Of a DNA stretch of 61,679 bases, positions 5,641 to 8,456 are shown piece after piece. Source of the DNA: Rhodospirillales bacterium (lineage in GTDB: Bacteria > Pseudomonadota > Alphaproteobacteria > Rhodospirillales > JANQFP01); the NCBI GenBank assembly GCA_028277795.1, contig JANQFP010000227.1, positions 1 through 61,679 on the forward strand, written 5' to 3'. Below the pieces are notes generated by a model. The model worked only from the letters and a program-made list of their open reading frames with translations, did not search any database and had not been told where the DNA came from. The position numbers were made by a program, and so were the translations under genes. The first letter of the stretch is position 1. Each line of letters starts with the position of its first letter.

Positions 5641-6564
5641 ATGAGCGACGACCCCTCCCATAATCCCGACACACCGGCGGTCGTGGCCCGCGACTCCCGC
5701 CTGGGCCATTCCGTGCGCACGTGGCTGCGCGGCCTGAGGCGGGCGCGCAACGGCGACGGCTCGGTGCGCGACACCCTCGACGAGCTGATCGAGGAGCGCG
5801 AGGAGGCCGAGGTTCCCATCAACGAGGACGAACGGGTCCTCCTCGCCAACATCCTCGAGCTGCGCGACCGCTCGGTCGACGACGTCATGGTGCCGCGGGC
5901 CGACATCGTCGCCGTCGAGAGCGACGCCTCGCTGTCCCGGGTCATCGAAACCATGACCGAAGAGGGCCACTCGCGGCTGCCGGTCTACCGCGAGACCCTG
6001 GACGATGCCGTCGGCATGGTCCACATCCGCGACGTGCTGGCGTGGCGCGACAAGGACGACGTCTTCTCGCTCGACCAGATCGTCCGCAAGGTGCTGTTCG
6101 TGTCGCCGTCCATGCAGGTTCTGGAGCTGCTGCTGGAGATGCGGGTCAACCGCTGCCACATGGCCCTCGTGGTCGACGAGTTCGGCGGCGTCGACGGCCT
6201 GGTCACCATCGAGGACCTGGTCGAGGAGATCGTCGGCGAGATCGAGGACGAGCATGACACGGCCGACGAGCCGGCGATCACCCGAAGGCCCGACGGCAGC
6301 ATCGATATCGAGGCCCGGGCTCCCATCGAGGTCCTGGAGGAGCTGGTCGGGCCGGTGATCACCGAAGACGAGCGCGAGGACATCGATACCCTCGGCGGAC
6401 TCGTGTTCTCGCTGGCCGGCCGCGTGCCCATCCGCGGCGAGCTGATCGCCCACCCGTCGGGCCTCGAGTTCGAGGTCCTGGACACGGACCCGCGCCGGAT
6501 CAAGCGCCTCCGCGTGCGCGGGATCCGGCAGGCCGACGGCGCCGAAGGGCCGGGCCACGGCTGA
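5641..6564 (+). CDS. CorC/HlyC-family CBS-pair protein
   Basis: This 307-residue cytoplasmic protein carries two CBS domains (residues about 75-195, including VMVPRADIVAVE and CHMALVVDEFGGVDGLVTIED) and a C-terminal CorC_HlyC domain (about 220-300) with the LGGLVFSLAGRVP signature. It lacks the N-terminal CNNM membrane domain found in full transporters, so it matches the YbeX/CorC type linked to magnesium and cobalt efflux and, in recent work on E. coli, to ribosome metabolism with YbeY. It overlaps ybeY by 4 bp (ATGA). The exact biochemical role of this family remains unsettled. Confidence 0.9.
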   Translation: MSDDPSHNPDTPAVVARDSRLGHSVRTWLRGLRRARNGDGSVRDTLDELIEEREEAEVPINEDERVLLANILELRDRSVDDVMVPRADIVAVESDASLSRVIETMTEEGHSRLPVYRETLDDAVGMVHIRDVLAWRDKDDVFSLDQIVRKVLFVSPSMQVLELLLEMRVNRCHMALVVDEFGGVDGLVTIEDLVEEIVGEIEDEHDTADEPAITRRPDGSIDIEARAPIEVLEELVGPVITEDEREDIDTLGGLVFSLAGRVPIRGELIAHPSGLEFEVLDTDPRRIKRLRVRGIRQADGAEGPGHG

Positions 6565-6587: not shown

Positions 6588-6856
6588 CTAGTACCCACTT
6601 TCACGGTTGCGTGCACCACATGACGGCGTACCAAGGTCGCTGGCCAGGAGAGGGTCGCGCCGTGATGCTGGAGCATCACAAGCGACTCTCGACGACGCCA
6701 GCGACCTTGGTACGCCGCCCGAAGGGTCGCTTCTCGCAATCCCCGGGGGCGTCGACGGCGCTTGACGATGCTCCGGCATCGCCGGCGCACCGGCTCCTGC
6801 CCAGGAATTGCGAGAAGCGATCATGTGATGCGCGCAACCGTGAAAGTGGGTACTAG
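6588..6856. repeat. nested palindromic element (MITE-like, three-stem structure)
   Basis: This is a 269-bp non-coding element between corC and lnt. Its ends are a 24-bp perfect inverted repeat (6588-6611 and 6833-6856) that extends to about 36 bp with two non-Watson-Crick positions (6588-6623/6821-6856). Inside are two separate hairpin arms. Arm 1 has a 20-bp perfect stem (6625-6644/6697-6716) and an inner 8-bp stem with a GG loop (6662-6669/6672-6679). Arm 2 has a 14-bp perfect stem (6727-6740/6807-6820) and an inner 6-bp stem (6766-6771/6776-6781). The two arms are diverged inverted copies: loop sequences align but stem sequences differ and still self-pair. No transposase is encoded. The terminal CTAG could be a target duplication but is itself palindromic. 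Confidence 0.85.
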
Positions 6857-6920
6857 CACCGAGCCGGCGTCCGGCGGGGGGCCGACGTCCGCCGACCCAT
6901 GGTCGCGGCTGGGCAACCGC

Positions 6921-8456
6921 GTGGCGGCCCTGGCCGGCTGGCGGCGTCATGCCCTGGCCGCGGCGTTGGGGGCGATCGCGACCGCGGCCCTGCCACCGGC
7001 GCACGCGGTACCGGTGCTGATCCCCGCCTTCGTCGGACTGGTCTGGCTTCTCGGTGGCGCCCGTCGGCCGCGGGGCGCCTTCGCCGCCGGCTGGTGGTTC
7101 GGGTTCGGCTACCATGTGGTCGGCCTGTACTGGGTCTCCTTCGCCCTGCTGACCGACGCCGCGCGCTTCGCCTGGATGATCCCCTTCGCCGTGGCCGGGC
7201 TGTCGGCGGTCATGGCGGTGTTCATCGGCCTGGCGACCCTGCTCACCCGGTTCGCCGGCCGCGGCGGCGTCGGCGGCGTGCTGGTGTTCGCCGCGATGTG
7301 GACGGCGTTCGAATGGGTCAAGAGCTGGGCCCTGACAGGCTTCCCCTGGAACCTCATGGCCACCGCATGGGTGTTTTCCGACGGCATGATCCAGGCCACG
7401 GCCGTGGCCGGCGCCTACGGCCTGGGCCTGCTCACCGTGGCCGCCGCGGCGATGCCGGCCGCGCTGGCCGAGACCGGCGCCGGGGCGCGGCGGCGCGCTG
7501 CCGCCGCCGTTGCCGTGGCTTGGCTGGCCGTCGGGCTGGTCTGGGCCGGCGGCGCGGTGCGCCTGGGCGATGCCGGCGACGACCCGGTTCCCGGCGTGCG
7601 GCTGCGCCTGGTCCAGCCCAACATCCCGCAGGTCCTCAAATGGCAGCCGGAGCTCCGCCAGGCGCACGTGGCGCGGCAACTGGCCCTCAGCACGGCGCCG
7701 CCGGGCGGGGCCGCCCCCGGTCCCACCCACGTCATCTGGGCCGAATCCGCCGTGCCCTTCGTCCTCGCCCTGGACTCCCGGCAACGGGCCCTGATCGGGG
7801 CGGCGACGCCGGCGGGCGGGGTGACCATCACCGGCGCCCCGCGGACGACGCCCCGCGGCGAGGCGCCCTTTCGGGTGTGGAACAGCCTGCATGCCGTCGA
7901 CGAGCGGGGGGACATCGTCGCCACCTACGACAAGGCCCATCTGGTGCCCTTCGGCGAGTACGTCCCGTTCCGCGGCCTCATCGACATGGCCAAGGTGACG
8001 GCGGGGGGCACCGACTTCTCGCGCGGCCCGGGACGGGTGACCCTGAGCCTGCCCGGTCTGCCGCCGGTGAGTCCCCTGATCTGCTACGAGATCATCTTTC
8101 CGGGACGGGTGGCGGACCCGGCAAATCGTCCCAGTTGGCTGCTCAACCTCACCAACGACGGCTGGTACGGCCTCACCGCCGGCCCGTACCAGCATTTCGC
8201 CGCCGCCCGGCTGCGCGCCGTCGAAGAGGGCCTGCCGCTGGTCCGCGTCGCCAACACCGGCATCTCCGCCGTCGTCGACGCCTACGGCCGGGTGGTGGCC
8301 GAGCTCGGCTTGGGTCGCGAGGGGGTGGTCGACAGCGATCTGCCGCGTCCGCGGCCGCGCGCCACGCCCTACGGCCGCCTCGGCGACTGGGTCGTGGTCC
8401 TGCTCGTCCTAGTGGTGGGCGGCGCCGGCCGCCTGTGGCCGCCGACCCGGCGCTGA
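6921..8456 (+). CDS. lnt: apolipoprotein N-acyltransferase Lnt
   Basis: Lnt transfers the third acyl chain to lipoproteins at the inner membrane. Several N-terminal hydrophobic segments (residues about 8-215 as numbered here) precede a nitrilase-type domain. The catalytic triad is visible: Glu near 275 (VIWAESAVPF), Lys near 338 (YDKAHLVPFGEYVPF) and Cys near 388 (PLICYEIIFP), followed by the LTNDGWYG motif. The start is uncertain. GTG 6921 (511 aa) lies just before the first membrane segment. ATG 6828, inside the right end of the palindromic element, would add 31 residues encoded largely by the repeat. Neither has a strong ribosome-binding site. It is probably the last gene of the miaB operon. 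Confidence 0.93.
   Translation: MAALAGWRRHALAAALGAIATAALPPAHAVPVLIPAFVGLVWLLGGARRPRGAFAAGWWFGFGYHVVGLYWVSFALLTDAARFAWMIPFAVAGLSAVMAVFIGLATLLTRFAGRGGVGGVLVFAAMWTAFEWVKSWALTGFPWNLMATAWVFSDGMIQATAVAGAYGLGLLTVAAAAMPAALAETGAGARRRAAAAVAVAWLAVGLVWAGGAVRLGDAGDDPVPGVRLRLVQPNIPQVLKWQPELRQAHVARQLALSTAPPGGAAPGPTHVIWAESAVPFVLALDSRQRALIGAATPAGGVTITGAPRTTPRGEAPFRVWNSLHAVDERGDIVATYDKAHLVPFGEYVPFRGLIDMAKVTAGGTDFSRGPGRVTLSLPGLPPVSPLICYEIIFPGRVADPANRPSWLLNLTNDGWYGLTAGPYQHFAAARLRAVEEGLPLVRVANTGISAVVDAYGRVVAELGLGREGVVDSDLPRPRPRATPYGRLGDWVVVLLVLVVGGAGRLWPPTRR

Follow-up and report, generated by a model that had tools for sequence, protein, structure and literature searches.

What is the near-perfect palindrome that separates two plus-strand genes in the window (the whole stretch of 61,679 nucleotides analyzed here, from the Rhodospirillales genome G000), and why do its two arms, which differ in their letters, each keep the ability to pair with themselves? 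The neighboring genes serve as context only. Upstream lies a CorC/HlyC-type CBS-domain gene (5641–6564, +; Pfam CBS, CorC_HlyC), whose end is 23 bp before the element, and downstream lies lnt (6840–8456, +; Pfam LNT_N, CN_hydrolase), encoding apolipoprotein N-acyltransferase. The open frame of lnt (6762–8456) reaches back into the element from its right edge. Translation of lnt may therefore begin inside the element, which is a possible source of its start codon or leader. The palindrome itself belongs to a real and widespread family, and is a MITE with an unusual conserved cargo of putative function. It is probably a non-autonomous MITE of the IS630 type, and its conserved module consists of two 94-nt hairpin arms in inverted orientation.

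The element occupies 6588–6856 (269 bp), exactly where an earlier note on this sequence had placed it, opening with CTAGTACCCACTTTCACGG and closing with CCGTGAAAGTGGGTACTAG. It consists of a 36-bp outer stem, two self-complementary arms of 94 nt and a CCCGAAGGG centre. The left half of the outer stem (6588–6623) pairs with the right half (6821–6856) over the 24 perfect base pairs and roughly 36 in all that the note had reported; the exact total is 36, in which a single G-T and a single A-C are mismatched. CTAG stands at each edge and contains the TA target site; the terminal inverted repeat begins with GTACCCACTTTCACGG at 6591 and ends at 6853, between a left TA (6589–6590) and a right TA (6854–6855). 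Both TAs are assigned as target duplications from the sequence, from the TA flanks of GT-type copies elsewhere and from the comparison of filled and empty sites. Arm 1 (6624–6717, +) is of class I, and is composed of a 21-bp stem I, a CAGGA internal loop, a 9-bp stem II, a GCC/AA internal loop, a 7-bp stem III with a TGGA loop, and GACGAC. Arm 2 (6727–6820, −) is of class II, with a 21-bp stem I, CAGGA, an 8-bp stem II, GCC/AA, an 8-bp stem III, a CGGA loop and GACGCC. They match the arm covariance model at 96.5 and 93.7 bits, respectively, scores that are high by construction, both arms being part of the model's own alignment.

Between the arms, at the centre of the palindrome, folding and the alignment of half-elements reveal a mini-hairpin, CCC-GAA-GGG (6718–6726). 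The plan of three stems proposed in the note thus stands for the outer stem and the two arms, and gains this fourth small stem, which makes it a four-way junction; in the window element this junction has zero unpaired bases. Folded as RNA, the element reaches a minimum free energy of −203 kcal/mol, whereas 200 dinucleotide-shuffled sequences give −108 ± 4.7 (z = −20).

The two arms are homologous. On the minus strand, arm 2 gives a gapless 94-nt alignment with arm 1, the shared parts being CAGGAG, GATGC..GGAGCATC, AAGCG and CGACG, and an end-to-end alignment of the half-elements was obtained. Divergence with pairing kept, as the note had described it, is therefore borne out by this alignment and by compensated changes. 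The further proposal that the element began as an inverted duplication concerns an event that is undatable here: every classifiable two-arm copy already combines class I with class II, so that any such duplication would predate the whole sampled family.

The genome of the window contains about 46 full or partial copies, detected by BLAST-type and pattern searches, with three types of terminal repeat. A-type ends are found in the window copy and in one other, on contig C115 (G000:C115:10657-10925), which is 95% identical to it; ends beginning with CTAGTGGTC occur at about 27 places, and ends beginning with AGAGCCC at about 17. Whole copies are fewer than 46, many being cut at contig ends. Thirteen are complete, and all 13 share the plan, the ends and the letters of stem I varying by type. 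Whether the palindrome has other copies, on which the earlier note had made its reading depend, is thereby answered, for this genome and, as described below, for many others. An exact 17-mer of the window end, matched against genome contigs, returns 12 records, which is about the chance level; six of these are contigs of one Rhodospirillales MAG, and two of the six hold partial arm matches.

Copies with other architectures are also present. A single-arm derivative (L079, G000:C36:8903-9069) retains both terminal repeats and only one arm, and single-arm copies of 156–171 bp occur in other genomes as well (L186, L147, L149, L234, L253). Another copy (L082, G000:C160:35773-36087) carries an extra hairpin of about 40 nt (CCTTCGCCGAAGCGAAGCTCCGGCTTCGCG) in an apical loop, a repeat within a repeat. 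In the draft assembly of G000, contigs C3, C52, C128, C133, C136, C147, C165, C178, C180, C195, C216, C222, C228, C231, C248, C252 and others start or stop inside copies, which makes the element a main cause of the fragmentation of this genome.

How the element moves can be read from its ends. IS630-type MITEs are short, non-coding and multi-copy and have terminal inverted repeats, and the element is 269 bp long, has no conserved open frame, is found at about 46 places and is bounded by outer repeats of 34–36 bp. The TA target duplication typical of these MITEs is represented in the window by CTAG at both ends. Among 69 GT-type copies elsewhere, TA flanks both junctions in 39, the left junction in 53 and the right in 50, often as CTAG; many right junctions read TG, TT or TC in place of TA. 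Empty sites, which the earlier note had proposed to look for, exist in sister species, where flanks joined by script match uninterrupted sequence. The clearest case sets locus L265 of one species (...GGGCGTTA[element]TCGAGAG...) against loci L285 and L286 of two others (...GGACGCTAGAGGG...); several of the other empty sites have diverged at the junction and their alignment is rough. At the site of one filled copy (L209), a sister species (L301, G005:C121) has what appears to be an armless outer stem, whose ends read GTGTCC instead of GTGGCC.

Related genomes also contain IS630 transposase genes (NF033545, PF13358) bordered by TA and by repeats that resemble the MITE ends. The two ends of the IS630 element L182 match MITE ends at 20 and 21 of 24 positions, those of L170 at 19 and 23, L170 sharing its genome with a matching MITE (L251), and those of L179 at 15 and 17. 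At L170 (G003:C99) the IS630 element directly abuts the CTAG edge of a palindrome copy. Of the relative with a transposase that the note had suggested seeking, examples with matching ends are found for three end types in related genomes, and none for the A-type ends of the window. A search of G000 gave no DDE_3 match, and its AGAGCCC-type copies L080, L082, L084, L089 and L090 are flanked by TNA (TTA, TCA, TGA) and not by TA, flanks which are unlike those of IS630 and recall insertion of IS5/IS1031 type; taken together, more than one type of transposase may be involved.

Rather than as RNA, could the arms act as single-stranded DNA hairpins or as a cruciform, recognized in replication or transposition in the way of REPINs, IS200/IS605 elements or attC sites? 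The extreme folding potential of the element (z = −20) agrees with such a role, and the single-arm and arm-less derivatives suggest that hairpins take part in deletion. IS630 DDE elements, however, move as double-stranded DNA, and it is to this type that the terminal repeats, the TA sites and the partner elements belong. The hairpin-driven, single-stranded transposition considered in the note therefore does not fit ends that behave as double-stranded IS630/Tc1-type ends in their TA junctions, IS630-matching repeats and filled and empty sites. We regard a role of the arms as single-stranded or cruciform DNA as unlikely; the strand bias described below bears on it further.

Arms of this kind are restricted to one bacterial class in the genomes sampled across the phylum. 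Of 317 genomes of the order, 103 match the covariance model, representing 55 of 115 genera; in an even draw of 385 genomes across the class 35 match, and in a draw of 398 from the phylum 6 do, all six of them Alphaproteobacteria, the same class. One complete genome has 39 matches. Nine queries, representing different copies or types, gave zero matches in a plasmid collection, and the core pattern is absent from viral contigs. Across genomes the length of the element stays mostly at 263–274 bp in spite of widely differing ends. In the 48 two-arm loci from other genomes the arms are always convergent, with a 9-nt spacer in 41, and all 37 pairs that could be classified (11 could not) join class I to class II.

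The position of the copies relative to genes bears on another reading, that of a palindromic coding element as in Rickettsia, which would encode a peptide on in-frame insertion and have its letters fixed by codon constraint. Open frames on both strands do span much of the window element, and the apical stem can be read as ATG CNG GAG CAT. However, none of 59 copies lies within a predicted gene, 35 of 56 complete copies lack a frame open through the element, and codons leave the compensatory changes in the stems unexplained. This reading is rejected on the first two counts and is highly improbable. Gene orientation around the same 59 copies, from a home-made gene call, is tandem in 39, convergent in 11 and divergent in 9; this shows no clear bias, so a role in 3′ untranslated regions is neither favored nor disfavored.

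Structural constraint on the arms is evident from comparisons among copies. In the motif direction the arm reads stem I (21 bp), CAGGA, stem II (8 or 9 bp), three bases, stem III (8 or 7 bp), a four-base loop, stem III′, AA, stem II′, GACGCC and stem I′. The lengths of stems II and III, taken directly from the sequences, define the classes, class I being the 9+7 form and class II the 8+8 form. In 16 arms of G000, 96% of the cells of the 36 proposed pairs are paired, vs. 34–45% when the partners are slid, and 29 of the 36 pairs show compensatory changes on both sides. At least two Watson-Crick types occur at 31 of the 36 pairs in 71 non-redundant arms (<90% alike) drawn from many genomes, a set that was collected with a model built on the 16 arms and in which paired cells are somewhat favored. 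Stem changes are thus compensated, the outcome on which the earlier note had staked its claim of selection on folding. AGGA, GACGCC and AA are fixed unpaired motifs of the arm; the unpaired AGGA and GACGCC positions hold about 1.5 bits each vs. 0.64–0.86 in stems I and II, and the letters of stem III are likewise conserved (1.4–1.55 bits).

Compensated changes can also arise without selection. Quasi-palindrome correction is a known mutational process that yields them, and the arms might be passive MITE filler of a DNA-only palindrome, in which template switching or gene conversion at replication corrects one side to match the other. A strand test discriminates here: a change of one base in a G-C pair leaves either G·T or A·C, and a process blind to the strand gives the two in equal numbers. 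The counts for the outer stem, 47 G·T and 55 A·C, are those expected of a structure with no defined direction and resemble the outcome of such correction. In the arms, read in the motif direction, G·T outnumbers A·C at 225 to 28 (50 to 7 under a stricter redundancy limit), an excess of which part possibly comes from the collection, the covariance model ranking G·U over A·C and favoring paired cells. Correction that is blind to the strand does not predict this excess, nor the conserved unpaired AGGA, GACGCC and AA above stems I and II, nor an arm of constant 94 nt across a class, and passive filler is accordingly quite unlikely.

The difference between arms and outer stem argues for selection on each arm to fold single-stranded when read in the sense direction, and RNA accounts for this most simply. 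The same G·T excess is predicted if that strand folds as single-stranded DNA, and to this extent strand-specific folding speaks for DNA as much as for RNA. When both strands are single, however, sense and antisense are exposed equally, and a bias for the sense strand only would need an additional factor that reads the strand. The selection on folding put forward in the note is in any case sustained by the many copies, the covariation and the strand-specific G·T excess.

No match to a curated RNA family emerged for the element. Three end types searched against the curated covariance models of Rfam give a best E-value of 1.3, far under the gathering scores, and a known Rfam family is rejected. 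Comparison by hand excludes a kink-turn in the CAGGA/GACGCC loop, which does not fit the register, and both a CsrA site and a ribosome-binding site at AGGAG, where the spacing does not fit. The note had known of no named family with this plan, and none is found in Rfam or in the literature searched; an earlier description is likewise not found in the literature and libraries searched, a coverage that mostly leaves out subscription journals and preprints.

Several known repeats share part of the plan. The repeat unit of pneumococcus (RUP), paired with IS630-Spn1, is a small non-coding repeat with IS630-matching terminal repeats, TA insertion and many intergenic copies (PMC2229807). The present element agrees with it in TA insertion and many intergenic copies and, for three end types in related genomes, in terminal repeats that match an IS630 element, and most of the IS630-MITE features tested are present. 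RUP, by contrast, is 107 bp long and confined to one bacterial species, has no reported signature of structure or function, and shows neither paired arms of 94 nt nor conserved internal loops. The Caulobacter and Brucella CIR elements are also alphaproteobacterial and intergenic, and their RNA is drawn as two arms with a linker (PMC2229807). They differ in their length of about 110 bp, in the lack of a 5′–3′ terminal stem and in being defined by an exposed GANTC, which occurs here in 2 of the 13 complete G000 copies and in 23 of 56 elsewhere; on this test the element is not a CIR. REPs and REPINs form inverted hairpin pairs that, as here, are often heterodimers, CGTC types predominating in Alphaproteobacteria (PMC3733652). 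However, their hairpins measure 20–40 bp, bear an unpaired GTAG or CGTC tag and have no terminal repeats, those with GTAG being associated with RAYT tyrosine transposases, whereas the present arm is 94 nt long, has a basal stem of 21 bp and lies inside IS630-type ends; an assignment as a CGTC-tagged REP was rejected, since neither the tag nor the AT-start stems fit. ERIC and Correia/NEMIS are MITEs with TA ends, whose transcripts form stable stem-loops that affect the neighboring mRNA (PMC2229807). The effect of ERIC depends on orientation and that of Correia/NEMIS proceeds via RNase III, and neither is described with a pair of inverted homologous arms or with the present set of motifs. A further paper was used for comparison (PMC5082802).

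The mechanism that best accommodates these observations keeps mobility and arm function apart. An IS630-type DDE transposase would recognize the terminal repeats of about 24 nt and insert the element at TA, usually within an intergenic CTAG, and movement would take place in trans through IS630 transposases. Each arm would be under selection for single-strand folding in one direction, the simplest case being RNA transcribed by read-through from a neighboring gene. Because the arms converge, the sequence itself dictates that any transcript, of whichever strand, has its 5′ arm in the sense orientation; a cis-acting RNA function would then survive both orientations of insertion, which may be what makes the arrangement useful. 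The likeliest role of the arm would be as a hairpin bound by protein, through which an insertion in or between operons becomes tolerable, whether by protection of the mRNA end, by processing, or by the handling of polymerase or ribosome.

Long perfect palindromes are unstable in cells. A homodimer of two identical arms would be such a palindrome and would probably be deleted, and the arms would thus remain different; persistence of the heterodimer fits common descent together with the loss of long perfect palindromes.

A broader view, to which we give somewhat less than an even chance, is that of a mobile structured RNA at the level of the class. A single two-arm module would have moved through Alphaproteobacteria under many unrelated terminal repeats, its palindromic design placing a correctly oriented arm first on either strand. 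MITEs are usually viewed as filler between transposon ends, and here the shape of the interior is far better conserved than the ends. The element also explains many of the breaks in draft assemblies of these genomes, where contigs end inside copies. With covariation resembling that of RNA across a bacterial class, the idea that an RNA device carried by a selfish element aids its life in operons becomes testable, and natural variants are at hand for finding the partner of this putative RNA.
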